Below, piece by piece: positions 30,757 to 46,699 of a stretch of 46,750 nucleotides of DNA. Position 1 is the stretch's first letter, and each line of letters starts with the position of its first letter. The stretch covers positions 1 through 46,750 of the forward strand of contig JACCRF010000073.1 of assembly GCA_013813715.1 (NCBI GenBank). Direction: 5' to 3'. This DNA comes from Gemmatimonadaceae bacterium. Its GTDB lineage: Bacteria; Gemmatimonadota; Gemmatimonadetes; Gemmatimonadales; Gemmatimonadaceae. A program made the translations under genes and the position numbers. Under the pieces are notes generated by a model. The model was not told where the DNA came from and made no database searches. It worked only from the letters and a program-made list of their open reading frames with translations.

Positions 30757-31446
30757 ATGACGCCAGCACTCACCACAGGGATCCCGGCTGCCCTGCTGGC
30801 CGCTGTTGCGATGGCCGGCTGCGCAGGCGGTACCGGAGGCGCGGTGCGGGCCTCATCCCCGTCGGCCGCCAACGAGCGAGGCGACCTCGCGGCCATCGCC
30901 AAGGCGCGGGCCGACAGCGCCCGCTATCCCTACACTGCGGCCGATGTCCACTTTATGTCCGCCATGATTGGTCACCATGCCCAGGCCATTGTCGTTTCCA
31001 ACTGGGCCGCGACTCATGGCGCCGGCGCCTCGGTGCGCACCCTGGCTGAGCGGATCATCAATGCACAGCAGGACGAAATCGCCACGATTCAAATGTGGCT
31101 CCGCGATCGGCAATTGCCGGTGCCCGAGGCTCACGCCACGGGCGTGAAGATGATGATGAACGGAGCGGAGCATGTGATGACAATGCCCGGCATGCTCAGC
31201 GAAGCCCAGCTGAAGCAGCTCGACCAGGCGCGGGGAAAGCAGTTCGACCGCCTGTTTCTCACCTCGATGATCCAGCACCACCGCGGTGCGGTCGTCATGG
31301 TGAAAGAGCTATTCGGCACCACCGGCGCCGGCCAGGACGAGACAGTGTTCAAGTTCGCGTCCGACGTCAGTGTCGACCAGACTACCGAGATTGCACGGAT
31401 GGAGAAAATGCTCGTCACACTCCTGCTCGGGAGCCAGTCCCCATGA
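30757..31446 (+). CDS. DUF305 lipoprotein
   Basis: The product is 229 aa with lipobox AGC around residue 22 (LLAAVAMAGC). It has two DUF305 His-rich helices: DVHFMSAMIGHHAQAIVVSN and DRLFLTSMIQHHRGAVVMVK, with HH and Met residues that in this ferritin-like family may bind metals; a Met-rich MMMNGAEHVMTMPGML lies between them. It is membrane-anchored on the periplasmic side. It is translationally close to the LVIVD-repeat gene downstream. DUF305 proteins are often found near copper or metal-handling genes, but no such gene is adjacent here. Confidence 0.88.
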   Translation: MTPALTTGIPAALLAAVAMAGCAGGTGGAVRASSPSAANERGDLAAIAKARADSARYPYTAADVHFMSAMIGHHAQAIVVSNWAATHGAGASVRTLAERIINAQQDEIATIQMWLRDRQLPVPEAHATGVKMMMNGAEHVMTMPGMLSEAQLKQLDQARGKQFDRLFLTSMIQHHRGAVVMVKELFGTTGAGQDETVFKFASDVSVDQTTEIARMEKMLVTLLLGSQSP

Positions 31447-31499
31447 TCGGTTTGTTGTCGAACGTTCACATACCCCACACCGTTCGAGAGGAAGCGAAG

Positions 31500-33533
31500 A
31501 TGGCATCCGCAGATCAGTCTCAAAATTCCGCCGCGCAACCGCGTGCCGCGGCATGGCGATGCCTGTCGCTCGCCATCACACTCGTGTCCGCGGCGGCGTG
31601 CGCCCCCGCAAACACCTCGATGAGCAGCACGCCGGCGCCAGCCGGCAGTATGTCGACCGCAGCACCGAGCCCCGATCCGCGCATTGGCCTCCGCGCCGGG
31701 CTGATGAATGCGGGTGAAACATCGTGGAACATGCGCGTCGTCTCCAGGACGCCCCCGTCCGAAAAATTCGTCGGCGGTGTCAGCTCCGACCTTGCGTTCA
31801 CCGGATCCCACGTCATCCAGGGCAGCTTCAGCGGATACCAGGTGTGGGATATCTCGAATCCGAGCCGGCCAACGCTCAAGACTGCCTACGTCTGCCCAGC
31901 CTCACAGAGCGACGTCTCAGTCTACAAAAACCTGCTTTTCATCTCCGGAGAGAGTCTCACCGGGCGTATCGACTGCGGCACGCAGGGCGTAGCGGACACT
32001 GTGAGCAAGGATCGGTTGCGCGGCCTCCGTATCTTCGACATCACCGACCTCAACAATCCGAAAAACGTCGGTAACGTGCAGACCTGCCGCGGCTCGCACA
32101 CGCACTCGGTGCTGGTCGACCCGAAGGACAAGGAGAACGTGTACGTCTACATCTCCGGCTCAGCCGATGTGCGGTCGCCGAGTGAGTTGGCTGGCTGTAC
32201 GAGTGCGCCGCTTGCCAGCGATCCTAACTCGTCGCTGTTTCGAATCGAAGTGATCAAGGTGCCGCTGGCCCATCCGGAACAGGCAGCGATCGTCAGCTCG
32301 CCGCGAATCTTCAACGACCTCGTTGCGCCAGCCCGGCATGGAGACGCGCCGGAAGATATCGCCGCCACCCGAAGGGCCGTTGCAGAAGCACGCGCCACTG
32401 GCGGCTTCACGGCGACATACGACGGCATGGAAAGGGTTCTGCCGTCGGACTTCATAGCGGAACAGTTGGACAGCCTCGTTAAAGCTCGCAACGGTTCCGG
32501 CGCGGCAACGGGTGCAGACAGCGCGGCACTGCGTAAGGCGCTGCCCGCGATCATCGCGAGGCTGGTGGGTCCGACTGAAAGCGGAGACGGTCCCCGCCCC
32601 GGGCCCACTCAGTGTCACGATATCACGCTGTATCCGGCCATTGGCCTCGCCGGCGGAGCGTGCGGAGGGTACGGGCTTTTGCTCGACATTCGTGATCCGG
32701 CGCATCCCGTCCGCATCAGCGCGGTCTCTGACTCTAATTTCGCCTATTGGCATTCAGCGACGTTCAACAACGACGGCACCAAGGTTCTTTTCTCGGACGA
32801 ATGGGGCGGCGGGATGCAGGCGAAATGCCGCATCACGGACAAGAAGGAGTGGGGCGCGGACGCGATCTTCACGATTGAAAACGGCCAGCCACGCTTCAAG
32901 AGCTACTACAAGTTGTCAGCGCCACAGACTCCCCAGGAGAATTGCGTCGCGCACAACGGTTCATTGATCCCGATACCGGGCCGAGACGTTATGGTGCAGG
33001 CCTGGTATCAGGGCGGCATCTCGGTCTTCGACTGGACCGATGCGGCGCACCCGAAGGAAATCGCGTTCTTCGATCGGGGTCCGGCGGACTCGACCAGACT
33101 CACCCTCGGCGGAACGTGGTCGGCCTACTGGTACAACGGCGTGATCGTCAGCTCTGAAATCTCGCGTGGTCTGGACATCGTCGAGTTGACGCCAAGTGCC
33201 TTCATCTCGCAGAACGAGATCGACGCCGCGAAGTCGGTGGTCTTCGATTACTTCAACACTCAGGGCCAGCAGAAGCTTGTGTGGCCGCCGAGCTTCGCGC
33301 TGGCGCGTGCCTACGTGGATCAGCTCGCGCGATCGACGGGTCTTTCTAACCCCAGGATCTCCGACATACGGAGAGCGCTCGCGAACGCGGAGAGTGCGTC
33401 GGGCGCAGGGCGTCGGGATGCGCTGACGCAGTTGGCGACGCAACTTGACGGCGATGCGCGCGCGGCGAGCGAGGCGTCCAAAGTGCGAATGCTGGCGGCC
33501 GCGGTGAGGGACCTGGCTGCGGCGTCTCGCTGA
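31500..33533 (+). CDS. LVIVD-repeat lipoprotein
   Basis: The product is 677 aa. The signal ends near SAAACAP (lipobox Cys). The body has beta-propeller LVIVD-type blades: SHVIQGSFSGYQVWDISNPS, LRIFDITDLNNPKNVGNV, LLLDIRDPAHPVRISAVSDS and GGISVFDWTDAAHPKEIAFF. A helical C-terminal region (about 120 residues) follows the propeller. I chose the ATG at 31500 because GAGAGGAAG precedes it; an upstream ATG at 31443 overlaps the DUF305 stop (ATGA) and is an alternative that would add a 19-residue leader. It forms a unit with the DUF305 gene. Function unknown; probably periplasmic or surface protein binding. Confidence 0.82.
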   Translation: MASADQSQNSAAQPRAAAWRCLSLAITLVSAAACAPANTSMSSTPAPAGSMSTAAPSPDPRIGLRAGLMNAGETSWNMRVVSRTPPSEKFVGGVSSDLAFTGSHVIQGSFSGYQVWDISNPSRPTLKTAYVCPASQSDVSVYKNLLFISGESLTGRIDCGTQGVADTVSKDRLRGLRIFDITDLNNPKNVGNVQTCRGSHTHSVLVDPKDKENVYVYISGSADVRSPSELAGCTSAPLASDPNSSLFRIEVIKVPLAHPEQAAIVSSPRIFNDLVAPARHGDAPEDIAATRRAVAEARATGGFTATYDGMERVLPSDFIAEQLDSLVKARNGSGAATGADSAALRKALPAIIARLVGPTESGDGPRPGPTQCHDITLYPAIGLAGGACGGYGLLLDIRDPAHPVRISAVSDSNFAYWHSATFNNDGTKVLFSDEWGGGMQAKCRITDKKEWGADAIFTIENGQPRFKSYYKLSAPQTPQENCVAHNGSLIPIPGRDVMVQAWYQGGISVFDWTDAAHPKEIAFFDRGPADSTRLTLGGTWSAYWYNGVIVSSEISRGLDIVELTPSAFISQNEIDAAKSVVFDYFNTQGQQKLVWPPSFALARAYVDQLARSTGLSNPRISDIRRALANAESASGAGRRDALTQLATQLDGDARAASEASKVRMLAAAVRDLAAASR

Positions 33534-33541
33534 TCGCGGCC

Positions 33542-34147
33542 TCAGGTTACGGCGGCGGGTACACGCGGCTCGCCGCCGAGTCGTATCCCGCCGCCAGGGA
33601 GATCCAGATGCTGCGGCAGATCGATCGTCTTCTTGCAGGGCGCCATCAACGGAATCGTCTTGCACTCGAGACTTATCGTCGACGTGAGCCTTCCCGCGTT
33701 GATCCGCGTGATCCACGCGTTCTTGATGATCAACTCGACACCGTCAAGCTTTAGCTCCGCCTTCACGTCGAAAGTCAGCGTCGGCCCGACTTGCACTCCG
33801 TTCGCCTGCAATTCGACTGATGGATGCAGTTCCCAGGTGATCGCGTGATCGAAGAGCTCCACGTTCCCTTCGACATCACGCTTATCCTCCCCTTTCTTTG
33901 CGACGTCGCGTAACTCCTTCCGCTGGCGCCACACTTCTCCCATCACGTCCGCGACAGGCTTGCGCAGTGACTCGGCGAGGAAGTCGAGCAGGCGCTCGCC
34001 GAGATTGTACTTGGCGAGGCCGGCGAAGTCTGCCGTTTCGCGCAACGAGCGCAACAGTTTGTCGCGATCGGCCTGGCTGGCTGGGAAACCGGAGGTTTCA
34101 GTCTCGAGGCCGCCAAGCGCCGAGATAGTGAGCGGGGCGTCAGGCAT
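33542..34147 (-). CDS. Conserved hypothetical protein, last gene of heme-oxidase operon
   Basis: The product is 201 aa from the ATG at 34147, which overlaps the PASTA gene stop by 8 bp. The N-terminal third is helical (DRDKLLRSLRETADFAGLAK, ERLLDFLAESLRKPVADVMG), and the rest is beta-rich (LQANGVQVGPTLTFDVKAEL, AWITRINAGRLTSTISLECK). No signal or membrane segment. The family is not recognised. Its tight coupling to the PASTA gene makes it part of the same eight-gene transcript. The gene converges with the LVIVD gene, leaving 8 bp. Confidence 0.7.
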   Translation of the reverse strand: MPDAPLTISALGGLETETSGFPASQADRDKLLRSLRETADFAGLAKYNLGERLLDFLAESLRKPVADVMGEVWRQRKELRDVAKKGEDKRDVEGNVELFDHAITWELHPSVELQANGVQVGPTLTFDVKAELKLDGVELIIKNAWITRINAGRLTSTISLECKTIPLMAPCKKTIDLPQHLDLPGGGIRLGGEPRVPAAVT

Positions 34148-36311
34148 CGGGCCATTCCTCTGATTTGACGATAGAACTACTGGGTAGTTCGAGGTTCCAC
34201 GGGCCGGCATCGCGACCAAAGTGAAGGGCAAAGGCCGCCCTTATCAGCGTATCCCGCTCTTCGGCGTGAAGAACCGGGGGGGCCGGCTCACGAGTAACGG
34301 GCTTGAGCACTACGGCCGAGGGCGGCGGCGTGGGGCCGCGAGTATGCCATTTTAGTACGGTTGCGCCGCCGACTCCCGCGACGACTACCAAGCCGAGCAT
34401 TGCCGCGGCGACCGGCGGGATAAAGGGAATCTCAACCACCACGTCAACAGTGCTGTCCGGCCGGCGCGGCCTTTGATGTTCCGGGTCCTGGCTGACCACC
34501 TCGTCGCGCAGGCGCAATTTTCTGACTTCAGAAGTCACGATCATGCGTAGGCTGTCGAGTTCTGCCACTACATCCGCGACTTGCCGGCGCTGGCCAATCA
34601 GGTTCGGCATCGGTGGCAAGCGTGGCGGCGCCCCGGCCACGAGTGACACGAGCGTGTTTGGCGCGGCGAAAGTACCAGCGGGCGGGGCCTGGGATTCCAC
34701 AATCGATGCCGACGTGAACGCATCGCCGCCGCCACCGAGGGAGAGTTGCGTGAAGCCGGAATTGGCGAGAATGCGGCGCGCGGAATCGAGCGTGAGGCTC
34801 ACAACCCCCGGAACCCGTGTCGTCGGTGCGGGTTGTGGCGACTCCGCCCCCAGGGCGACCGTGACCGCAGAATGCATCAATACTGTCTGGCCCGGCTCAG
34901 GCCTTTGAACAATTACTCGATCGACAGCATCCACCGCCGGCCGCAGAACTTCGCCGAGTACGAGGCTGTCGCGTCGCAGGGCGCTGTCGGCTGCAGCGAC
35001 TGATTTTCCGGCGAGGTCGGGCACCCTGACGCGCCGCACTTCCGGCGCCCTGTTTTCCACCAGATCGACCAGCGATCCGGAATCGACGGTCGTTCGCGGC
35101 GCGGGCCTCTGCGAAACGATTACTCCGTCGGCACCGGGGCGGACGACGCGGGTGAATCGTCCCACTCCCAGCCCATTGCTTTCGAGCCTCCGCCGTGCGG
35201 CCTCCCGCGTCAGGTCTATCACTGAGGGCACGGTTACCGGCGACGGCGGCGTCGTGATGGTGAGGTCGACCGCATCGCTACGGCGCGCGGCATCCCCTTC
35301 ACGCGGGGACTGCTGCACAACTCTGCCTTCGGCATCCCGCCGTGTGAGATACTGCACGCGTCCAGCCCGGAATCCCGCTCGCCTGAGCGAATCGGCGGCC
35401 TCGGCTAGAGCCAGTCCCACCACTCGTGGGACACGGAACGTGGGAGCGGGAGGAGGCAGACCCACAGAATACCAGACGTGCACGTCCGTGAGAGTCACCA
35501 CCTCAGTCCCTGCCGGCGGCTCCTGCCTGAAAACGCGTCCGGAATCCGCGTCATCCGAGTAGTCCCGCGCGACCCTGCCCAGGGCCAGACGATTTCTTCT
35601 GAGCGCGGCGGTTACCATCGGCGGGGAGTTCCCGCGGAGGTCCGGCACCAGAGTGCGATCCTGGATCACAGTCTCGGGAACGACGACAGGCTCTTTCGGA
35701 GGGTCTGGAGGAACGTAGATGGGACAGCCGCGGCTGTCGGTCGGTTGACGCGCCGACGGCTTGTTCTTGTTAATAATGCCCTCAATCACCCCGATGAAAA
35801 CATTCCGCACGGAACAAGGATTGTCGGGCTTGGGCTTTCGCGCCTCGGTCGCCACGAAAAGCGTTACCGCCTTCGTGGCATTCACGGGAGTGCCGGCCAG
35901 CGGGCGCTGGTTTACGACAAGGCCGGCGGTCATGCTCGAAGTAGACGAATCGCGCTGCACTATTCGCAATTCGGTGAAAGTCAACGCATCGATTGCGGCC
36001 CTGGTGGTCATCCCGATGACGTTAGGGATCACTCTAGGTCCATCTGACGTCCCCCCAACGTCGTCTCGGCCGGGCGGTACCTGCGGTTGCTTCGCCGGAG
36101 TGGGTGAGTCTCTCGTAATGACCGGGCGCGGCAACGGCCGCGGCGACGGCCGCACAGGCGTGGGCTGCCCCTCGCCAATCGCGGGCAGGGCCAGAATCCC
36201 GAGAATGGCTGGAATCGCGACGCGCCTCACCGCGGTCATCCGAGACCTGCCTGAAGGCACGAAGCCGCAGGCTTGGTTGGCGGGGTTCTCGAACGTTGCG
36301 GGGTTGGCCAT
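34140..36311 (-). CDS. Multi-PASTA-domain membrane protein
   Basis: The product is 723 aa from the ATG at 36311, which has AGGA 5 nt upstream; a start at 36239 would begin right at the signal/anchor (MTAVRRVAIPAILGILALPA). Seven PASTA-like units follow, with openings PNVIGMTTRAAIDAL, VPDLRGNSPPMVTAAL, VPRVVGLALAEAADSL, VPSVIDLTREAARRRL, VPDLAGKSVAAADSAL, VPGVVSLTLDSARRIL and MPNLIGQRRQVADVVA, separated by Pro-rich linkers. A membrane helix (PPVAAAMLGLVVVAGVGGAT) near the C-terminus leaves a cytoplasmic tail. PASTA domains bind peptidoglycan fragments in kinases and penicillin-binding proteins, but here no kinase or transpeptidase is attached. It lies between the DyP gene and the last gene of the cluster. 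Confidence 0.87.
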   Translation of the reverse strand: MANPATFENPANQACGFVPSGRSRMTAVRRVAIPAILGILALPAIGEGQPTPVRPSPRPLPRPVITRDSPTPAKQPQVPPGRDDVGGTSDGPRVIPNVIGMTTRAAIDALTFTELRIVQRDSSTSSMTAGLVVNQRPLAGTPVNATKAVTLFVATEARKPKPDNPCSVRNVFIGVIEGIINKNKPSARQPTDSRGCPIYVPPDPPKEPVVVPETVIQDRTLVPDLRGNSPPMVTAALRRNRLALGRVARDYSDDADSGRVFRQEPPAGTEVVTLTDVHVWYSVGLPPPAPTFRVPRVVGLALAEAADSLRRAGFRAGRVQYLTRRDAEGRVVQQSPREGDAARRSDAVDLTITTPPSPVTVPSVIDLTREAARRRLESNGLGVGRFTRVVRPGADGVIVSQRPAPRTTVDSGSLVDLVENRAPEVRRVRVPDLAGKSVAAADSALRRDSLVLGEVLRPAVDAVDRVIVQRPEPGQTVLMHSAVTVALGAESPQPAPTTRVPGVVSLTLDSARRILANSGFTQLSLGGGGDAFTSASIVESQAPPAGTFAAPNTLVSLVAGAPPRLPPMPNLIGQRRQVADVVAELDSLRMIVTSEVRKLRLRDEVVSQDPEHQRPRRPDSTVDVVVEIPFIPPVAAAMLGLVVVAGVGGATVLKWHTRGPTPPPSAVVLKPVTREPAPPVLHAEERDTLIRAAFALHFGRDAGPWNLELPSSSIVKSEEWPDA

Positions 36312-36318
36312 GGCAGTC

Positions 36319-37812
36319 CTAGCCTCCACCCCCGAAGTATCGCACCGCGCGCAAACTTGGCAAGAAGAAATACGCGCCGCCTCGCACGGTCACGAACTGG
36401 GGCAATCCCGAAACTCGGCGCCGAAGTCCGTTCTCCACCGGCGCCATGAAGTCAGCCGTCACCGGGTACCCAGGCAGTGGCTCGCGATTGCCAAGCAGCG
36501 GATCACTCTCTCCCGTCAGGCCGGAGAACTTTGTGCTCATCATCCACGCGTTCTGGAGAAACTCGAACTGCCGGGCGATGTTCGCGTTGAGGCAGATGAA
36601 ATGAAGACCTAGCTCCGGATCGTTGGGGGATGCTCTGCGCTGCGCGTCGGCAGGCGACAGTCCGCCACCGTACTCCCGGCCGCGGCGCACGATGCGATGA
36701 AATCGAACCGAAGACATCAGATCGTCTCGAAAGGCGTTCGACCCGAACCCCAACGCCGCGACGAGGCGTCCGAGGCCCGTCTGCCTCCCATGAAAATCGG
36801 TGTTGCGCGGATTGGCGCGTCGTACGTGCGCGCCGAACGGGCAGCGGACACCGGTTGCGTCCTGATCGAACGTGAATTGATCCCGGCGAATCTGACCCGG
36901 ATCCGGTCCAATACCCGGAATGGCCTGCTGTTGAATCGGCACCAGCGGATCCCCCGCTTTCGTGCGGCCGACGAAGGCAGAGGCGAGCTTGTCGGCCTCC
37001 GCTACATCTCCACCGACCTGATCGTAGATGAACTGCCAGAAGCTCCGAACGTCCTGGCGGAGGTCGCGCATCACCAGGTACGTTCCGTTCCGGCCGACAT
37101 CCTTTTTCCCGGGCGCATCTTCTGCGGAGAGTAGCCCGGCGCTCGAGGAATCGACGTCGACCAACGGGCGGTCGGTGTATTTGTCGTACTCGTTGCGATA
37201 CCCAAGCAGAACCTCGCCCAATGCAACCACGTTGCTGTATTCGTTCATTGCGCCGGTTACGTCACGACGCTGCTCCCAATCGATTCGCGGCTGGCTTATG
37301 CCGTCGACAAATCCGAAAGGTTCAATCCCGTCAAGATCTGCCGTGCCAAGCCAGCGCAGCTCCTCGAACGCGTCACTCCACACGTCTCCGGCAACGCTCT
37401 GCACCAGGGCGTCGAGGCCCCCTTGCTCGGCGAAGAACATGACCACGAGGTGCGGCATGCCGGTGGAATGGCCCCATTCCCATCGCGAAGGCGCATTGCA
37501 TCCCACATCACCCAGCCGACGCGAACGGCTCGCTTCCGTCATCCCCGCGAGAAATTCGGCAGAGAAGCCCGCGAGGACGGATGGAGCCACGCCGAGAGCG
37601 TCGAGGCCGGCCGCGGTGAAGGCGACCTGCATCGCGGTCGAGGGCGGCGGATCCATTGCGACGGCGCTCGTGACTGTTGCCTTCCGCAACCACGACCGCC
37701 CCGCCGCAGGATTCTTCACGCGCAGGAGAACATACGAGGCCGCCTTCATCTTTCCGTAGCCGAAGCGCACCAGGCCCTGGACGTCGCCATAGTCGAGCTC
37801 GCTCCGGGTCAT
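36319..37812 (-). CDS. DyP-type heme peroxidase
   Basis: The product is 497 aa. The DyP hallmark GXXDG is GFVDG at 167-171 (Asp170 acid-base) in IEPFGFVDGISQPRID. The proximal heme His329 is in CPFGAHVRRANPRNTDF, and FICLNANIARQFEFLQNAWM is typical of the C-terminal half. Long DyP members like this belong to the larger C/D classes. No signal peptide, so cytoplasmic or carried by the neighbouring membrane protein. The ATG at 37812 overlaps the stop of the upstream duplicated-domain gene (ATGA); a longer frame upstream is that gene read out of phase. It would use H2O2 or organic hydroperoxides to oxidise substrates, which fits the heme-oxidase operon. Confidence 0.93.
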   Translation of the reverse strand: MTRSELDYGDVQGLVRFGYGKMKAASYVLLRVKNPAAGRSWLRKATVTSAVAMDPPPSTAMQVAFTAAGLDALGVAPSVLAGFSAEFLAGMTEASRSRRLGDVGCNAPSRWEWGHSTGMPHLVVMFFAEQGGLDALVQSVAGDVWSDAFEELRWLGTADLDGIEPFGFVDGISQPRIDWEQRRDVTGAMNEYSNVVALGEVLLGYRNEYDKYTDRPLVDVDSSSAGLLSAEDAPGKKDVGRNGTYLVMRDLRQDVRSFWQFIYDQVGGDVAEADKLASAFVGRTKAGDPLVPIQQQAIPGIGPDPGQIRRDQFTFDQDATGVRCPFGAHVRRANPRNTDFHGRQTGLGRLVAALGFGSNAFRDDLMSSVRFHRIVRRGREYGGGLSPADAQRRASPNDPELGLHFICLNANIARQFEFLQNAWMMSTKFSGLTGESDPLLGNREPLPGYPVTADFMAPVENGLRRRVSGLPQFVTVRGGAYFFLPSLRAVRYFGGGG

Positions 37813-39113
37813 AGGAGAGCGATCCATTCGCGGGTCTCCTGTTCGCCCATGGACGACGATTCCAACCCCTGCCGGATGCGCCCATTCCTCTCCAGGTCGA
37901 TTGCGGTGAGGCCCGGATAGGCCTTGTACCAGACTTGCGTTGGCAAAGTGTGGCGGCGCAGGAACTCCTTGTACTTCTGTTCGTCCGCACATCCATCGCG
38001 AACCAGCCAATTGGTTCGCGGATACCCGATGCCGTTGCTGAAAACGGCGTTGAGACCGAATCCCGTCTTATTGATGAAGTCGTCCATGTAGCTGTCGACG
38101 GTGCCGTCATAGTTGCTGAAAAACACCATCCGCTTCCTGCGGTCGAGGAAGACCCACCGCGCGAAATGAATCGTGCGTATGCGGCCCAGTCGGCCGGGCC
38201 TGACAATGTGCCGCGCGGCGTAGTCAACGGTGCCAAGCACACCGATCACCGTTAACAGGCGTACTACTCCGGGCTTCAAGCTTCCCATCGCAGTGAACTG
38301 GTTGGTGACGTCGTGATCCTCCAGGCGCGCCAATCCGTCGGAGTGGGCCGGGTTTACCCGCCATGTTAACTCGGGGTCAGTCTTCTCGAGTTGCCGAAGC
38401 CGGACGAGAACGATCGGCGCGATAACGATGAGCAGTGGCAACGCCAGCAGCAGCAGCAGTGGAACGCCGACCAGGTGCAGCACGTTCCTGATCCGCCACG
38501 CCGGCGGGGTTGAGTCGTCGCCAGACAGCGTGATGCGCCCGGCGGATTTTTCTGCATTGATGAAACGCCGCAACTTCGAGTGGATTTCTCGCGGCGACAT
38601 GCCCCTGAGCGTGCTCGAACTTCCGTCGACAAAACTTTCGAGCGCGATCCTCAACGCCGCCTCTTCGCGAACGCGACGCACCGTCCGTCCAGGCCAATTC
38701 ACATACGCCGCAACGGGGGGCGTACCATGTTGTCTCAGCCACCCGGCCAGATCGGTGTCGGCCGTGAAGTCCGCGCAACACGAGAAAATCGAGCGCAGAC
38801 CATTCGCCGCGAGGGTCACCAACTCTTCGAGGAAGGCATCTGCGTCGCCATCGATATCGCCGATGAAGGCGAGGTAGAGCGGATAAATGGGAACAGGTTC
38901 GCCATTATGGAGGCCAACGTCGTCGAGCGTCTGGTCGTCGAGGATGACGAATCGGGCGAAATGCAGCCCGTCGAATTTCCCGAACGGAATCAGCCCGTTG
39001 TCGGCCCTCACGCGTCCCGGGGCGTCGTTCATGGACGCGAGCAGATGACGAAGCTCGCCCTCGCGCTGTGGATTCACCGGCGCAAGGATCATGAAGTTCG
39101 ACTGCGGCGTCAT
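37809..39113 (-). CDS. Membrane protein with internally duplicated domain, heme-oxidase operon
   Basis: The product is 434 aa and I do not recognise the family. The two halves are clearly a tandem duplication. First half: LHFARFVILD, then LAFIGDIDGDADAFLEELV, GLRSIFSCCADF, WLRQHGTPPVAAYVNWPG. Second half: IHFARWVFLD, then MVFFSNYDGTVDSYMDDFI, GLNAVFSNGIGY, FLRRHTLPTQVWYKAYPG. Each looks like a ferredoxin-like alpha/beta unit. Between them lies a membrane helix (NVLHLVGVPLLLLLALPLLI). A 6-bp gap follows the catalase-like gene, and the stop overlaps the DyP start, placing it firmly in the operon. It may be the membrane anchor or partner of the heme enzymes; that is inference. Confidence 0.8.
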   Translation of the reverse strand: MTPQSNFMILAPVNPQREGELRHLLASMNDAPGRVRADNGLIPFGKFDGLHFARFVILDDQTLDDVGLHNGEPVPIYPLYLAFIGDIDGDADAFLEELVTLAANGLRSIFSCCADFTADTDLAGWLRQHGTPPVAAYVNWPGRTVRRVREEAALRIALESFVDGSSSTLRGMSPREIHSKLRRFINAEKSAGRITLSGDDSTPPAWRIRNVLHLVGVPLLLLLALPLLIVIAPIVLVRLRQLEKTDPELTWRVNPAHSDGLARLEDHDVTNQFTAMGSLKPGVVRLLTVIGVLGTVDYAARHIVRPGRLGRIRTIHFARWVFLDRRKRMVFFSNYDGTVDSYMDDFINKTGFGLNAVFSNGIGYPRTNWLVRDGCADEQKYKEFLRRHTLPTQVWYKAYPGLTAIDLERNGRIRQGLESSSMGEQETREWIALL

Positions 39114-39119
39114 GACACG

Positions 39120-40346
39120 CTACTCGAAGACCTCGTCTCCCGTCGGCTCGTAGTGAGGCACCGCGTTCATGGTGTGTCTCAGTTTCGAGAGCTCCAGGTA
39201 CATCCGACGTCGAGCGCGGCTTTGATTTCCCAGCGGGCGATGCTCGGGAATGCAGTGCCACGGGTTGTACGAGAGCCGTTTGGCAAACTCCATCTGCGCC
39301 GGAGTGTTGAAAGTCTGGCGCGGCAGCCGCAGAGTCGCCACAGAGATACGAGGCGAGAGCTTTTCGGGCCACAGCACGCCGTTGTTCTCGATCGGCATGA
39401 GGTGCGGATCGGTTTGAAGCTGCAGGCGGACATCGAGCTCGACATCTCCTTCGGCAAGCGACTTGACCATCGCGTCCCGCAGATAGTCGTCGGGTGGGCG
39501 GAAGGGAAGCCGCGGAATCGGAGTCCGTTTCATGGATTTCGGCCACACCGAGTACTGCATCGCCCGGCCTTCTCCAAGCAGGTACGGCACGCAGCTGAAG
39601 TACGGCGCTTCGAACGGACTGCTCTGTGTCTTGATCCAGAGACCCTGCATGATGAGGTCAAGAATGTGCGAGCGATGGAAGTTGACGAAGTAGAAAATCT
39701 GCGCGTTCTTAAGGCTTTCGATCTGCAACTGCGCGTTCGCCCTCGTATCCGGCGTCACGAAGGTCGGCGGAGACACGCCGAACATGTCCTGAGTGAACTT
39801 TTCCTCGTCCATCAACTTCGGACCGGGCACGCCCATCAGCTTGATGCTGATGCTCATGAATCCTACATCTTCGATGTCGGGCGTTACGTATGGGCCGGGT
39901 CCGGAAAAACGCACCCACGCACGGTAGGTGCGCGGCTCCGCGAAAATCCCATGCCGCAGCTCGGCCGGGAGGCCATCGTGCACGATGAACTCTCCGCGCA
40001 CGATGCCGTGCGTTTTCGTGTTCCCACCTCGCTCAAATCCCCCCGGCTTCCAGAGCAGTCGCATCTGCTTGTCGAAGCTCGAGATGATCGAGTCGAGATG
40101 GGCCTCTTCATCCGGTATCGGCCTCTCCTCGGCGATCCTCAATCCCTCATTCGGGCGTTTCCTGTTGATCAATGCCGTCGTCCACCTTGCAATCGGATCG
40201 CGAAGAACGGCATCGAACGCAGGGCGCACGAACGGATCGAATCGACTTTCGACATGCACAAGGAAGGTCGATGCATCGCTAACCCAGTTCAAAAAAGCCG
40301 AGCCGGTGTTAGCCCGTGGCCCTGGCCGACTCGAGTTCGAGTTCAT
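39120..40346 (-). CDS. Catalase-related heme protein, allene-oxide-synthase-like distal site
   Basis: The product is 408 aa, against about 480-500 for monofunctional catalases. NTKTHGIVRGEFIVHD carries the likely distal Thr112-His113 pair. RTYRAWVRFSGPGPYVTPDI and SISIKLMGVPGPKLMDEEKF are core catalase-fold blocks. RARRRMYLELSKLRH near the C-terminus gives RxxxY with Arg379 and the proximal Tyr383. Catalases have Val before the distal His; coral allene oxide synthase has Thr there, which suppresses catalase activity. So this protein more likely acts on a fatty-acid hydroperoxide than on H2O2. The ATG at 40346 has AGGAG 4 nt upstream. The operon position (with an alpha-DOX-like protein and a P450) supports this. 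Confidence 0.85.
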   Translation of the reverse strand: MNSNSSRPGPRANTGSAFLNWVSDASTFLVHVESRFDPFVRPAFDAVLRDPIARWTTALINRKRPNEGLRIAEERPIPDEEAHLDSIISSFDKQMRLLWKPGGFERGGNTKTHGIVRGEFIVHDGLPAELRHGIFAEPRTYRAWVRFSGPGPYVTPDIEDVGFMSISIKLMGVPGPKLMDEEKFTQDMFGVSPPTFVTPDTRANAQLQIESLKNAQIFYFVNFHRSHILDLIMQGLWIKTQSSPFEAPYFSCVPYLLGEGRAMQYSVWPKSMKRTPIPRLPFRPPDDYLRDAMVKSLAEGDVELDVRLQLQTDPHLMPIENNGVLWPEKLSPRISVATLRLPRQTFNTPAQMEFAKRLSYNPWHCIPEHRPLGNQSRARRRMYLELSKLRHTMNAVPHYEPTGDEVFE

Positions 40347-40375
40347 GTCACTCCTGATGGGCACCGGACGCCGGC

Positions 40376-40831
40376 TCAGACCTTCAAGGCGAAGTCAGCG
40401 ACACGCTTCTTTCCCCACCACACCTTGCCGAGGTACACGCCAGGCGACACTTCGCGAATCTCATCCCGGATCTTCTGCGCGACGAAGGAAGTCGTCGAAT
40501 AGTCGATCACGATTACTGTCCGGCCATCGAGCCAGCTTTCCCCCATGTACACCATGGCGCGGATTCCGAGGATCGAGAACGGACTGAGTTTGTTGCGCAG
40601 ATCCTGCGTCGCTGGATTGAACACCTTCCCCTTCCAGAAGAGCAGCCGCACCAACAGCCTCACGAACGAGGCGACGAACGTGCCGGGCATGAAGATCGCC
40701 GTGCCCTGCGTGTCTCCCACCGGAACGGGGCCCGGCGGCGCAGCCGTGAAAATCTCGTCGAGCTCCCGCTGTGACATGTGGATGAAAGCACGCGGGTCAG
40801 TGTTGGGCGCCGTAATCGCAGTCGTTGTCAT
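40376..40831 (-). CDS. Small conserved protein of heme-oxidase operon
   Basis: The product is 151 aa and I do not recognise it. There is no signal peptide. After PRAFIHMSQRELDEIFTAAP comes GDTQGTAIFMPGTFVASFVR, then FNPATQDLRNKLSPFSILGI, VIVIDYSTTSFVAQKIRDEI and VYLGKVWWGKKRVADFALKV. The layout suggests a small beta-barrel lipid-binding type fold, which is a guess from pattern only. It lies 29 bp upstream of the catalase-like gene and 40 bp downstream of the P450 gene, so it is an integral member of the operon. A carrier or accessory role for the lipid substrate is possible. Confidence 0.72.
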   Translation of the reverse strand: MTTTAITAPNTDPRAFIHMSQRELDEIFTAAPPGPVPVGDTQGTAIFMPGTFVASFVRLLVRLLFWKGKVFNPATQDLRNKLSPFSILGIRAMVYMGESWLDGRTVIVIDYSTTSFVAQKIRDEIREVSPGVYLGKVWWGKKRVADFALKV

Positions 40832-40870
40832 GTTGCATCCTCGCGTCGTCTGAATTTGTTCTGCGGTGCG

Positions 40871-42190
40871 TCACGCGGGCCGAAACGCCACTCCCCGCCG
40901 CGGAAATTCCAGCGGCAAATCGTCAGTTTTGAGCGTCACTCCGTCCAACGTCAGCCGCTGGCGTCCGATCATTACCGCCAGTGCGGCCTTGCTCACGTGC
41001 AGGATGATGCTGCGCCCGGGGCACCCCCGCGCGCCACCCAGGAATGGATCGAATCCCGATGTAACTCTGCCGCTCTCGAGCCACCGCTCTGGACGAAAAC
41101 GACGTACCTCGGTTGCATCGCTCTCGGCGACGAGCGGAAAGCTGTGAAGCACCTCCATCCCGGGCGGAATCACCACACCGGCCACTGAAGCTCCGGCAGG
41201 CGCGCAGTGAAACGTCTTCGTCACCGGCGGGAATAGATGTGCGCCCTCGATCAGGCACGCCTCAACCAGAGCGAGATCCCGAATCGTCGCGGGTTCCTCG
41301 AGTGCGCCCGTGCCCTCGAGCTCAGTCTCGACTCTCCGCCGCACGTCGGCGTCGGAGAGAATAAGGGTGAGCGCGCGAGCCACCAGGTCGGTGCCCGACC
41401 CAGTGAAGGTGAACATCCAATGCGGCAACTGCTCGAGCAGCAGTGTCTCATCGCCCGCCGGGCGCGCAGTCGCCGAGCGGTGCGCCACACCGAGGAGGCT
41501 GGCTGTGCGCACGGCGGCCGGATCGCGCCACAGATCGCGCAACGCAGCATAGAATCGCTCACGACGGCGCCTGCCCGAAAAGCCCATGATCCTGCGCTTG
41601 ACGGGATTCTGAACCAGCCCGACCAGGGTCTGTACATCGTCCGCCAGCCACGCAGGCGCCTTCCCGCCAAAGACGATGCCCAACATCGATCGCGACATCG
41701 CAGCGCGTATCCCATTGATGTCGCGAATCGGCGTTTCGAACGCAGCTAGAACGTGACCCAGGAAAACGCGCTCGTGCTCATGCGGCCGCCCTGGCTCCAG
41801 CACTCCTTCGTTGAACGCCCGCAACCGTTCCCATTCCGCGCCATCGCTGATCGTCAGTGCATGGGGAGCGAGAAAACTCATGCCCTTCCGCTTCGCCTCG
41901 CCCATCGTGATCCCGCCGGGTGATGGACGGGCATCGAGAATTGCTTTCGAGAGCTCGCTTCCGCCGACCAGAAGGATTCGCTTGACGCCAAAGTTAAGAA
42001 CGAGATTCGCGCTTCCGCGGCGGGCGGCAGCGTGACGGGCCCATTTGCGAAATACGGTCCGGACGCTGAACGTCCGAGGATGCCGGATGACTTCGCCGGC
42101 GATTCCGCCTGCGAGCCTCATCAGATCGAGCAGCGTCGTCGTGGGCGGCAAACTCGCGGCGCTGTTCACCATCGCGTTCGGCTTGCCGAT
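40871..42190 (-). CDS. Cytochrome P450 with atypical K-helix
   Basis: The product is 439 aa from the ATG at 42190; starts at 42172 and 42244 are possible, as none has a convincing ribosome site. The heme-ligand loop is FLGGARGCPGRSI with Cys390. The I-helix reads WMFTFTGSGTDLVARAL, keeping an acid/alcohol-like Thr-Asp pair. The K-helix motif ExxR, nearly universal in P450s, is here EGAH (Glu315, His318), while the following FRPERWL keeps its Arg. The stop of the heme peroxidase gene lies upstream, so the two are one transcript. Fungal Ppo/LDS enzymes fuse an alpha-DOX-like peroxidase domain to a P450; here the same pair is encoded as adjacent genes. Confidence 0.9.
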   Translation of the reverse strand: MGKPNAMVNSAASLPPTTTLLDLMRLAGGIAGEVIRHPRTFSVRTVFRKWARHAAARRGSANLVLNFGVKRILLVGGSELSKAILDARPSPGGITMGEAKRKGMSFLAPHALTISDGAEWERLRAFNEGVLEPGRPHEHERVFLGHVLAAFETPIRDINGIRAAMSRSMLGIVFGGKAPAWLADDVQTLVGLVQNPVKRRIMGFSGRRRRERFYAALRDLWRDPAAVRTASLLGVAHRSATARPAGDETLLLEQLPHWMFTFTGSGTDLVARALTLILSDADVRRRVETELEGTGALEEPATIRDLALVEACLIEGAHLFPPVTKTFHCAPAGASVAGVVIPPGMEVLHSFPLVAESDATEVRRFRPERWLESGRVTSGFDPFLGGARGCPGRSIILHVSKAALAVMIGRQRLTLDGVTLKTDDLPLEFPRRGVAFRPA

Positions 42191-42264
42191 CATATGCCTC
42201 ACAGCACTGGTTTTTCCGGCCGGCCGGCTCAGCCGGATCTTCATCAGGGCGCTCGCCCTTCGGA

Positions 42265-45075
42265 CTACTTTCCGGGTTCCCTGAACGCGTCGTCGGACTC
42301 TGCGCCCTTCCTGGGCTTCCATTGGAGCGAGTAGTATTCGCCGCGATCGCGTGCCCATGGGTCGAACGCATTCTGCATCTGGTCGAGCTCCGACTTCAGC
42401 TCGGGGATCGTGCGCAGCAGCACTCGCTTGAGCGGCGACACGGGCTGATCAGCGTGACCATTGATTGGTTGTGCTTCGGTCATCGCGCCGGGACCATTGT
42501 TGTTCACCCAGTCGACACCCAGTTGCGTGTAGAATTCCGGACGGAAGCTGGACGTGAAGAAACGGTCGCTGTACAGGCGGCGCGATGCGTTCAGGATAAA
42601 CACCACGAACTGCGTTTCCGAGATGGCAAAGCCGTGGGGGCGCGTTGTCTCTGCGAGAAATCCGACGACCGTGTCCAGATCCTCGACGTTGTCGACCGTC
42701 GAGCCGTTGGGATGGCCAAGGCAGTCGTTGATCGGCTGCCCGGTCGTGTCGCGTTGCGACAGGGTAATGACTTTCGTGCTGTCGCACCTGTGCGTGCCGT
42801 ATACCTCGCGCAATGCTTGCACGAGCTTCGCCTGCTCCGTTCGCTCGGCGGAGCCAGCAGGGAGACGCCGATCGATGAAATCGTCGAAGGCCGTGAGCTG
42901 ACGCAGGCCGTACTGCCGACGGAACTCGTTGAAACGAGTGACGCCGCGCTCGCGGTCGCGAATGAGGTCGAGCGCGGGCACGTCGAGCTTCTTCGTGGAG
43001 CTGGTGAGCCGATCCATCGGCAGGTTCTGTAGAAACCGAGGATGGTTCTGGAGAGCGAGGGCGCCAAGTCGCTGGCGACCCATGCTCAACGCCCATCCGG
43101 CGAGCCCCCGATCGCGCATGAAGTCCGTGGCCTTCCCTCGGAACGTCGAGACGACCGGTATCTTGCTGGCGATCGCGTTCGGCTTGCCGTAGTCGCGGAA
43201 CTCGATCAGGTCCGGCACCAGCGGGTGCAGCCGGTAAACGGTGATGAACTCTTCGGGGAAATTGAAAGGCGATCCGAAGTGATTGACGCCACCGTTGACG
43301 TCGTCGGGGTTGGACAGGTTCCAGCCGCGTTTGTTGTTGCCCGTTCCGAAGATTCCGGGGCCGGTCGCGAAGATCGAGTACCAGGTGTTGGCGGCGTTGG
43401 CGCGGTTGCTGCGATTGGCCTGCGAGACCACCACGGCCAGCGCTCGCGACAGCCCGCTTTCTCTTGCCAGCAACCCGTTCCAGTTTCCGTTCATTCCGCG
43501 GAAGAGCGGCTCGTTGTAGAGAAGTTGCGTGGTCCATTCTATGGTATGGATCTTCGCGATCTCGGCCGCCACGACGAGGTGGGCAGCCTCGAAGAGCTCG
43601 GCCGGAGTTACATCGCGATATCGTATCACGCGCGCCGGATTCGCCGGGTTGCGCAAGCCCGAATCCATATCAGGCGTCCGCGCCGCGCGACGCCGGAACT
43701 CGTCGACGAACTGATTGTGCTCTCGCGCGAAAACATTGTGATAGAAGCTGGCGCCAATGCTCCAGTTGTCGGGGAAGGCGGTGGCCTCCTGGCCCGCCCA
43801 CGCAGAATTCATCGGGTCGGTGGGGAGCAGGGTTGGCAGGTAGCCCTGACGGTCACCAGCGGTGGTGTCGCCCGCGATTCTGACCATGAGAAGGCGCGCG
43901 GCATCGTTCGGATCGCGCTTTACCCGTTTAAGTGAAACGGAATCGTATCCGTAGAGCTGTGAGGCGTCCCACCACGCGGTGTTCGTGTTCTTGAAGACCT
44001 TGGGCGCGCGCGTCATGTACTCGCGCCCGTTCTGCGTAAATGTCCCCGGCTTTCTCGCGTCGGCCACGAACGCGCGCTCCATCGCGTCAGCCGGCCGGCA
44101 TCCGAGGCGCGCGGCTCCCTCTGCCGTAAGCGGAGTTTCCACGCCGTTCACCTTCTGCGAGACACATCCAACTTTCATGTACTCAGCTGCGTTGCGGCCT
44201 TCCTCGAGGTGCGAGAACCAGTCGTGCGTCATGAACTGGATCCAGAACGCGGCGAGGACATTGAAGAAGGGCGCTTTCTTGTAGTCGCAGCTGGCGTCCG
44301 TGGCAAAGCCAGGCTTGCCGTTGCCGTCAGCGCATGCGACGCTGTCTGATTGCTTTCGAGTGAACAGCTTGCGGCTGATGACCTGCGGGTCAGGCGTGAG
44401 TAGCGAAAGGCGTCCGCCATGGCGATTGCGGATAACCTCGTTCAGCCCGAGCTCGGGAAACGTGTTCTCGAACTCGACGTTGCGAGCGAAATACATCCCC
44501 GTTGACCCCATCAGCGGGTTGCGTATGTCGTTGCAGATTCCGGTCAGCGTGCGGCCGCGAATGAGCTCGCCTTTGCAGAGCTGGTCACCACTGCCACCGG
44601 CACTCCCGAAACTCGGATGACCCGCCGGCAATCGCATCTCGGGCCACGTTTTGATCGCAGGTCCATCGGTGGGAAAGCGACCGTTGAGGTATTCGGAGAA
44701 GGTTCCGCTATTGTCGAAGAGGTTGAACTTGAGCAGCTCGACGCGTTCGTACTCGAGGTCGATGAGGGAGCCCATGATTCCGCGAGTCGGCTGACTCAGG
44801 ATTCCCTTCGAGCTGGCGTCGCCAGTGCCGTAGTAGTTGGTCCAATCCACCCATGGGACGTCGCGCCCTTTGACCGCGAGATCGCCACCGCGGCAGAGCG
44901 CGGTACTTTTCTGGACCTTACCCTCGAAGCGCTGATCGCGAGATGTGGCGAAGCGCCGGGCACCGGTGGAGATCTCTTCGGCGCAGCCGGCAAGGTTGTC
45001 GAGAGCATCTCGTTTCCCGCAGCCGGCAATACTCAGCGTGACGCACGCCGCGAACAGAGCAGGTGCTAATCGCAT
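42265..45075 (-). CDS. Animal-type heme peroxidase lipoprotein, alpha-dioxygenase-like
   Basis: The product is 936 aa with lipobox AGC at Cys19, so membrane-anchored outside the cytoplasm. The distal His284 lies in FWIQFMTHDWFSHLEE, the proximal His510 in VVAAEIAKIHTIEWTTQLL, and the catalytic Tyr614 in ITVYRLHPLVPDLIEF. FAREHNQF at 449-456 is the superfamily signature. The QFMxHDW and AKIHTIEW motifs are those of plant-type fatty acid alpha-dioxygenases rather than myeloperoxidases, so it probably makes fatty-acid hydroperoxides. It is longer than plant enzymes (~640 aa), with an N-terminal 100-residue extension. It is the first gene of the eight-gene minus operon, directly upstream of the P450. 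Confidence 0.92.
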   Translation of the reverse strand: MRLAPALFAACVTLSIAGCGKRDALDNLAGCAEEISTGARRFATSRDQRFEGKVQKSTALCRGGDLAVKGRDVPWVDWTNYYGTGDASSKGILSQPTRGIMGSLIDLEYERVELLKFNLFDNSGTFSEYLNGRFPTDGPAIKTWPEMRLPAGHPSFGSAGGSGDQLCKGELIRGRTLTGICNDIRNPLMGSTGMYFARNVEFENTFPELGLNEVIRNRHGGRLSLLTPDPQVISRKLFTRKQSDSVACADGNGKPGFATDASCDYKKAPFFNVLAAFWIQFMTHDWFSHLEEGRNAAEYMKVGCVSQKVNGVETPLTAEGAARLGCRPADAMERAFVADARKPGTFTQNGREYMTRAPKVFKNTNTAWWDASQLYGYDSVSLKRVKRDPNDAARLLMVRIAGDTTAGDRQGYLPTLLPTDPMNSAWAGQEATAFPDNWSIGASFYHNVFAREHNQFVDEFRRRAARTPDMDSGLRNPANPARVIRYRDVTPAELFEAAHLVVAAEIAKIHTIEWTTQLLYNEPLFRGMNGNWNGLLARESGLSRALAVVVSQANRSNRANAANTWYSIFATGPGIFGTGNNKRGWNLSNPDDVNGGVNHFGSPFNFPEEFITVYRLHPLVPDLIEFRDYGKPNAIASKIPVVSTFRGKATDFMRDRGLAGWALSMGRQRLGALALQNHPRFLQNLPMDRLTSSTKKLDVPALDLIRDRERGVTRFNEFRRQYGLRQLTAFDDFIDRRLPAGSAERTEQAKLVQALREVYGTHRCDSTKVITLSQRDTTGQPINDCLGHPNGSTVDNVEDLDTVVGFLAETTRPHGFAISETQFVVFILNASRRLYSDRFFTSSFRPEFYTQLGVDWVNNNGPGAMTEAQPINGHADQPVSPLKRVLLRTIPELKSELDQMQNAFDPWARDRGEYYSLQWKPRKGAESDDAFREPGK

Positions 45076-45622: not shown

Positions 45623-46699
45623 TCACTCGGCCCGCACCGCAACCCGGTGCCACGCATTGTTGCAGTAGCCCTTGACGTTCCACGTCGCCTCGACCGTGGA
45701 GGGTTGCGTCGCCCCGGCGACGTCGGTGGCACGAACCACCAGCGTGTTATGGCCAGGCGGCAGGTCAACCGACGCCTCCCACATCGACCACGTCCACTCC
45801 GGCCCTTCGATGGATATCCGCGCCGGAATCCACTCGTGCCCGTCGTCTGACGATACCTCCACCGCAGCGACAGGCCGGCCCTCGGAGCCCATTGCCCATC
45901 CCCGAAGCTCCAGCCGGCCCGCTGGCACCACTTCATTTTGCGTGGGGTGGAGAATGACAGCGTTGACGGGAACCCCCCTCAGCGGAATGCCGGCAGACAC
46001 GTCACGGGGTCGACTTGGGTCTGCCTCTCGCTGCACGCGATAAGCCGCGCTCTGGAAATAGTTTGGTGACGGATCGGCTCGAAGTGTGATGCGGCCGAGC
46101 CATTTGACGCTTCGCGCGCCTATCCAGCCGGGCACGACTGCGCGAAGCGGAAATCCATGCTCGGCGGGCAGTGGAGCTCCGTTCAGCGCAGTCGCGAGAA
46201 TCACCTCGTCGGCCAATGCCTTTTCGACGTCGATCGAAGCCCCGAATCCGAAGACGCGTCCGTTGCGCTCTACCTGGTCGAGGCCAGTGAACTCGACATG
46301 CCGAGCTTCGTCGCGGACGCCCGCCGCTTCGAGAACGGCGCGGAGGGCGATGCCCGTCCAATCACCAGTGCTCGCCGCCTCGGGTCCCCAGGGCAGCTCA
46401 CCGGGAAGCGCACCCACCGACAACAGCTCGTCCCGGCGCAGACCCGCGCAAACCAGAGTGGCAACCACGTTACGCACGGGAAAAGCGCGAACGAGATCAT
46501 CGAGCGAAAAACTCTGCGGTCGCTCCACCAGCCCGTCGATTTCGAGTCGCCACGATGCCGGATCGATGCGCGGAATCGGAGCGTGGCTGCGGTGGAAGAA
46601 TGATTCGACCGGAGTGACCAGCAGCTCCGCCAGAACTGGCCAGACTCCCGAGTTGAGGCCGTCCTCGTCGTGAATGAGCCGGGCGTGCGGCGTCGTCAT
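45623..46699 (-). CDS. Sulfite-oxidase-family molybdopterin oxidoreductase
   Basis: The product is 358 aa. The molybdenum-ligand Cys84 lies in VVATLVCAGLRRDELL, the first domain of the sulfite oxidase fold. GFPLRAVVPGWIGARSVKWL is the molybdopterin-binding stretch, and the C-terminal dimerisation domain ends TWNVKGYCNNAWHRVAV, as in plant-type sulfite oxidases. No heme domain and no signal peptide, so it could be cytoplasmic or partner-exported. In place of the family's usual Gly-Asn-Arg after the Cys there is Gly-Leu-Arg. The 5' edge lies 51 bp from the window end, so a redox partner may be just outside. Substrate may be sulfite or another oxo-acceptor. Confidence 0.9.
   Translation of the reverse strand: MTTPHARLIHDEDGLNSGVWPVLAELLVTPVESFFHRSHAPIPRIDPASWRLEIDGLVERPQSFSLDDLVRAFPVRNVVATLVCAGLRRDELLSVGALPGELPWGPEAASTGDWTGIALRAVLEAAGVRDEARHVEFTGLDQVERNGRVFGFGASIDVEKALADEVILATALNGAPLPAEHGFPLRAVVPGWIGARSVKWLGRITLRADPSPNYFQSAAYRVQREADPSRPRDVSAGIPLRGVPVNAVILHPTQNEVVPAGRLELRGWAMGSEGRPVAAVEVSSDDGHEWIPARISIEGPEWTWSMWEASVDLPPGHNTLVVRATDVAGATQPSTVEATWNVKGYCNNAWHRVAVRAE

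Follow-up and report, generated by a model that had tools for sequence, protein, structure and literature searches.

The window analyzed here, a 46,750-nucleotide stretch of DNA from a Gemmatimonadaceae bacterium (contig JACCRF010000073.1, assembly GCA_013813715.1), carries eight tightly packed open reading frames (ORFs) on the minus strand, running from position 45075 to 33542 and designated G1–G8 in the direction of transcription, for which a first-pass annotation had proposed a role in making and processing lipid hydroperoxides (an oxylipin-like pathway). With the likely start codons, the spacers are about 20, 39, 11, and 6 bp, followed by small overlaps or gaps. Thus, the proposed layout of eight minus-strand genes with short gaps and some overlaps was reproduced, neighbouring genes lying at most 39 bp apart or overlapping by a few bases. 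The genes and those flanking them are as follows, G3–G6 being hereafter designated the core.

42265..45075, minus strand: G1, alpha-dioxygenase-like haem peroxidase of 936 aa with a lipobox (predicted exported)
40871..42358 (likely start 42244), minus strand: G2, cytochrome P450, in a slot occupied elsewhere by a catalase-related gene
40376..40831, minus strand: G3, 151-aa calycin-like beta-barrel protein, candidate lipid-binding protein, and conserved core gene (family alignment)
39120..40364, minus strand: G4, catalase-related haem protein, the distal-His position being occupied by Asn115
37809..39113, minus strand: G5, protein with a membrane anchor and a pair of ABM/SchA-like (dimeric alpha+beta) domains
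36319..38010 (likely start 37812, which overlaps the stop of G5), minus strand: G6, DyP-type peroxidase
34140..36329, minus strand: G7, PASTA-repeat protein, co-directional, outside the conserved set
33542..34147, minus strand: G8, 201-aa protein without a family, outside the conserved set
31095-33533, plus strand: LVIVD gene, convergent, downstream of the operon
45623-46699, minus strand: sulfite-oxidase-like molybdopterin gene, upstream of the operon

G1 belongs to the An_peroxidase family (PF03098, Pfam E 2.7e-57), and its closest solved structure is the plant fatty-acid alpha-dioxygenase (alpha-DOX) 4kvj (E 3.6e-53); plant alpha-DOX matches were at 2.3e-50 or better, whereas other solved structures were far weaker (myeloperoxidase, 0.004; cyclooxygenase (COX), 0.49). 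The key residues of the rice enzyme (OsaDOX) given in PMC8720084, namely H157, H311, W315, T316, F375, Y379, H382, F552, I553, A556, and R559, correspond in the same order to H284, H510, W514, T515, F610, Y614, H617, F826, I827, A830, and R833 of G1, and all these positions are identical in 83/83 aligned family members, except that I827 is Val in three. By this alignment, H284 would be the distal His (OsaDOX H157), Y614 the catalytic Tyr (Y379), and H617 the proximal His (H382), and H510, T515, and R833 would form the carboxylate/alpha-carbon site (H311, T316, and R559). In the same comparison, most of the substrate residues are absent from a second, COX-like An_peroxidase of Nitrosomonas europaea. 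The residue pattern of G1 supports a putative fatty-acid alpha-oxygenation, and the protein groups with alpha-dioxygenases rather than with non-lipid peroxidases; together with the lipobox, this bears out its description as a lipoprotein haem peroxidase of the alpha-DOX type.

The assignment of G2 as a P450 likewise held (Pfam E 2.9e-9), the Cys-ligand loop (FLGGARGCPG) being present. The K-helix ExxR motif reads EGAH in the window, as compared with ETGR in the relatives at loci L031, L032, and L076, a change that may reflect an error in the sequence, a tolerated substitution, or decay. The I-helix motif common to G2 and its P450 relatives (TGSGTD) lacks the acidic residue that P450s activating oxygen usually have, and no ferredoxin or reductase gene is found among the window ORFs adjoining the P450. 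No kinship to CYP74 was seen among the solved structures listed, the best of which were of the P450 BM3 type and others. The gene between G1 and G3 (slot X) encodes a P450 at the window locus and at L031, L032 (on the same contig as L089), L076, and L056, and 19 loci with co-directional G1, X, and G3 have a catalase-related protein there. A lipobox or another signal is present at the N-terminus of many G1 proteins, and many X proteins also have export signals or lipoboxes. The P450 and catalase-related superfamilies each contain known hydroperoxide-converting enzymes (PMC5617202).

Although G4 alone gave no Pfam match, the profile of its family matched the coral allene oxide synthase (cAOS; 1u5u, 5.5e-10), the mini-catalase 3e4w (5.7e-9), and catalases (1.6e-8), in agreement with the catalase-related identity given in the first-pass annotation. 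The distal Thr-His described there was, by contrast, out of register: in the profile and family alignments, R64-A-T66-H67 of cAOS aligns with R112-G-G114-N115 of G4, and the KTHG motif (T118-H119) lies four residues downstream of the true column, Gly114-Asn115. The distal position is Asn in 34/34 distinct operon G4 proteins (19/19 in a first alignment and 17/17 Nitrosomonadaceae copies, two of these on contigs already counted), Gln in 21/21 catalase-related proteins of slot X, and His in non-operon relatives (L039–L042 and L098). The haem Arg of 1u5u is kept in G4, and the proximal Arg-x-x-x-Tyr (R385 and Y389) is invariant in the G4 alignment; tree support was 100/100 for the operon G4 clade and 100/99 for the X clade. 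Consequently, the reading of G4 as an allene oxide synthase is unsupported, because the distal His is replaced by Asn and because an allene oxide forms only from an allylic hydroperoxide, a class to which the alpha-DOX product does not normally belong. In Halomonadaceae, the DyP and catalase-related proteins form a single ORF of 900–1022 aa. A catalase-related domain with Phe at the distal position is also found fused to an apparent LodA/GoxA-type amino acid oxidase (L043, 7301-10345; L044, 7753-11007).

Because sequence searches with G3 and G5 gave nothing useful, their structures were modelled. The G3 model (predicted local distance difference test (pLDDT), 81) is a calycin-like barrel with 4mve as the best match (Z 14.1), whereas lipocalins and fatty-acid-binding proteins reached only Z 6–8, a level common for barrels; by this model, G3 is a candidate lipid-binding protein. 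In the AlphaFold2 model of G5 (pLDDT 86), two similar ABM/SchA-like domains flank a hydrophobic hairpin, as expected for the duplicated-domain membrane protein initially described, and the best structural matches were WhiE-ORFI (9lmn, Z 13.5) and AbxO (9ltx, Z 11.1). The DyP identity of G6 agrees with its match to 8re3 (E 5.7e-42) and with the presence of the GFVDG (GxxDG) and AHVRR motifs, the TIGR01413 score (4.5e-20, 72 bits) being under the curated cut-off of 100.5. The PASTA identity of G7 was also confirmed (PF03793, 1e-59; 6 scored stretches).

Conservation was analyzed with 134 G1 relatives from a scan of genome contigs, 80 loci being kept and Nitrosomonadaceae loci added; most loci were found through G1, and the set is hence biased toward its presence. 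At least three of G3, G5, G6, and G4 occur at 28 of these loci, which span Pseudomonadota, Desulfobacterota/Thermodesulfobacteriota, and Campylobacterota. The usual order, G1-X-G3-G5-G6-G4, is seen in Desulfobacterota, Gammaproteobacteria, and Sulfurovum, and differs from that of the window, G1-P450-G3-G4-G5-G6. The recurrence of G1–G6 in order is more than chance. Neither G7 nor G8 has a match at any other core locus examined, which rules out an eight-gene unit conserved as a whole; thus, the predicted synteny holds for G1–G6, and the conserved unit comprises six genes. In the phylum sample, relatives of G1 and G4 share a genome only in the window's own, so that the phylum's other G1 genomes cannot be taken as core carriers, and the core is therefore patchy. 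The order G4-G5-G6 is common to the window and two betaproteobacterial loci from metagenome-assembled genomes (L080 and L100), where G4 is 82–86% identical to that of the window, far above the identity of G1 and G3 at those loci. This suggests a probable recent transfer, the excess being otherwise a sign of binning trouble. Where the window has the PASTA protein after the DyP gene, these loci have a 520–540-aa membrane protein without a Pfam family (L100, 6619-8247; L080, 7540-9102). Misbinning of the window contig as a contaminant is unlikely, as the neighbouring LVIVD gene is present in 53/61 relatives. LVIVD and DUF305 homologues, the same genes as beside the window operon, also lie near a different, shorter alpha-DOX-like gene and a P450 at L034 (2442-11092).

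A less biased test of co-occurrence was made with 125 Nitrosomonadaceae genomes, operon-type G4 being defined by E below 1e-189. G5 was found in 18/125 genomes, and G3 and operon-type G4 each in exactly those 18, of which 8 also contain G1. Lipoxygenase (LOX; PF00305) was found in 17/125 genomes, all within the 18, mostly no more than about 15 kb from the core and in three genomes on another contig; no LOX was found in the genome to which the window belongs. Moreover, all 18 core stretches fetched contain G1, another alpha-DOX-like gene, or LOX/COX-like genes. In N. europaea (L085, 4923-22597; about 18 kb), genes for a tyrosinase, the COX-like peroxidase, LOX, G1, a GMC oxidoreductase, and a di-haem protein are followed by G3-G5-G6-G4. 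At L130 and L131, a COX-like peroxidase, LOX, a patatin, an aldehyde dehydrogenase, and a TPR-alpha-DOX precede the core, which is followed by another patatin; such patatin phospholipases accompany some of the clusters. Smaller G1-X-G3 loci contain RoxA-like di-haem cytochromes (NCBIfam NF040606), and a fatty-acid dioxygenase and a diol synthase of P. aeruginosa are related to RoxA (PMC4496055). In 29 further Nitrosomonadaceae genomes, the core is absent and a catalase-related protein of another kind is present (E about 1e-62 to 1e-130).

Since the six genes recur in distant bacteria beside fatty-acid oxygenating enzymes, we propose, with a probability of roughly 0.7, that G1–G6 encode a pathway for making and processing oxidized fatty acids, that is, an oxylipin-type fatty-acid-hydroperoxide pathway. 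This supports the lipid hydroperoxide function proposed earlier, in keeping with the residues and grouping of G1, the tracking of the core with LOX or alpha-DOX, the patatins, the aldehyde dehydrogenase, and the export signals. Families, active-site residues, gene order, and co-occurrence were taken from sequence; substrates, reactions, the order of steps, and localization are what we infer. Presumably, a phospholipase or lipase encoded outside the window frees a fatty acid, and G1, exported and probably anchored to the outer membrane or in the periplasm, would, judging from its residues, add O2 beside the carboxyl group to give a 2-hydroperoxy acid. Such a 2-hydroperoxide is expected to lose CO2 to give the Cn-1 aldehyde or to be reduced to the 2-hydroxy acid; an allene oxide, requiring an allylic hydroperoxide, is not a natural prediction. 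The haem enzyme of the next slot, P450 G2 or the Gln-type X protein, may, from its position and family, isomerize, cleave, or reduce the hydroperoxide with no redox partner, and the G3 barrel, G5, DyP G6, and Asn-type G4 may, from their co-occurrence, bind the product and process it further. The core would pair with any dioxygenase at hand: alpha-DOX and, in Nitrosomonas, LOX and the COX-like peroxidase as well.

Several observations weigh against this proposal. The co-occurrence in Nitrosomonadaceae is inflated by shared descent, even though arrangements differ among the genomes and LOX is sometimes unlinked. G1 also occurs without the core in many genomes (Nitrospira and Acidobacteriota), since a G5 search in 24 other G1-bearing genomes gave two weak partial matches only. 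G3–G6 have no clear export signal, unlike G1, so that a shared compartment is only presumed. The window P450 may be impaired, with His in place of the ExxR Arg. Replacement of the distal His in both catalase-related families, as aligned, makes their probable chemistry unreadable from known enzymes. Finally, the presence of a GMC oxidoreductase, a di-haem cytochrome, and a tyrosinase as neighbours is also compatible with a different oxidation pathway.

One alternative is that G3, G5, G6, and G4 protect the envelope by disposing of lipid hydroperoxides or other peroxides, the dioxygenases being a source of substrate and not the start of a biosynthesis. DyP and catalase folds indeed handle peroxides, and the core is found together with several peroxide-forming enzymes that are unrelated to one another, the GMC oxidoreductase included; however, defence against adventitious peroxide has no need of a dioxygenase in the operon, and the catalase fold lacks its distal His as though catalase activity had been selected against, so that we consider this explanation unlikely. 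Still less probable is a specialized-metabolite cluster, in which a molecule resembling a polyketide or a terpenoid is tailored by G5 and the P450, with or without a fatty-acid-derived aldehyde. G5 resembles the polyketide tailoring proteins WhiE-ORFI and AbxO, and the best NCBIfam matches of the P450 are natural-product P450s, albeit far below the cut-off, but no synthase or scaffold-building gene lies near the window operon or at the core loci with annotated flanks. Oxidation of aromatic or polymeric substrates (phenols or lignin-like material) by G1 and DyP as peroxidases, with the GMC oxidase as the H2O2 source, appears very improbable: the fatty-acid carboxylate site is kept in G1, LOX and patatin would have no role, and the DyP protein is without a clear export signal, even if DyP enzymes oxidize dyes and phenols and the N. 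europaea cluster contains both tyrosinase and GMC oxidoreductase.

Beyond the fatty-acid-hydroperoxide pathway itself, we tentatively suggest, at somewhat less than even odds, a widespread and horizontally moved system for oxylipins that is spread over diverse Gram-negative bacteria, among them ammonia oxidizers such as N. europaea, in which a fixed core (G3, G5, DyP, and Asn-type G4) is combined with interchangeable dioxygenases, one slot is taken by either a P450 or a Gln-type catalase-fold enzyme, both catalase-fold families that have lost the distal His are new lipid-hydroperoxide enzymes, and the product is a signal or an envelope lipid. Oxylipins, the oxidized fatty acids, are relatives of the hormone-like lipids of plants and animals, and their biology in bacteria has so far consisted of a few cases, namely the Pseudomonas LOX and diol synthase and the Nostoc 10S-dioxygenase/lyase. 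With a cluster that is conserved across phyla and present in the model ammonia oxidizer N. europaea, the question can be tested in an organism that grows in culture. If true, the replacement of this His in both catalase-fold families, and the exchange of a P450 for one of them at the same position, would mirror the use of P450 in plants and of the catalase fold in corals, an independent recruitment for the same kind of chemistry.

In the open-access literature searched, most subscription papers lying outside it, we found no description of the six-gene composition, the Asn/Gln replacements, or the P450/catalase exchange. The earlier statement that no bacterial operon of this composition had been described thus stands for the composition within that literature, but not for the tandem of a dioxygenase and a catalase-related protein, which is known from Nostoc punctiforme as linoleate 10S-dioxygenase with a catalase-related 10S-hydroperoxide lyase (Brash 2014, as cited in PMC13049297 and PMC9579011). 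This pair, compared by its description in the citing papers only, is the nearest precedent; by that description, the window cluster is set apart by the addition of G3, G5, DyP, and a second catalase-related family or P450, by a long alpha-DOX-type G1 exported by its signal, and by the change of the distal His to Asn or Gln. With OsaDOX (4kvj/4hhs), CalDOX, and LepDOX (PMC8720084), G1 shares the sequence family, the catalytic Tyr, both haem His residues, and the His/Thr/Arg carboxylate site; unlike these plant and cyanobacterial enzymes, the G1 family, known from sequence alone, is about 900–1000 aa long with an export signal and long insertions. The P. aeruginosa 10S-DOX/7,10-diol synthase (PA2077-PA2078; PMC4496055) is likewise a periplasmic oxylipin operon, and several relatives have, after G3, RoxA-like di-haem proteins that belong to the same broad family, but its dioxygenase is of a different family and the window operon has no RoxA-like gene. 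As in fungal Ppo/linoleate diol synthase, a COX-superfamily dioxygenase is coupled to a P450, here by separate genes and with a dioxygenase of the alpha-DOX type, the kinship of the P450 to the Ppo domain being only putative. Finally, G4 resembles the coral allene oxide synthase and hydroperoxide lyase domains (1u5u; PMC5617202) in the catalase-related fold indicated by its profile and in retaining the haem Arg and the proximal Arg-x-x-x-Tyr, and differs from the coral enzyme in having Gly114-Asn115 for the distal T66-H67 and no lipoxygenase fusion.

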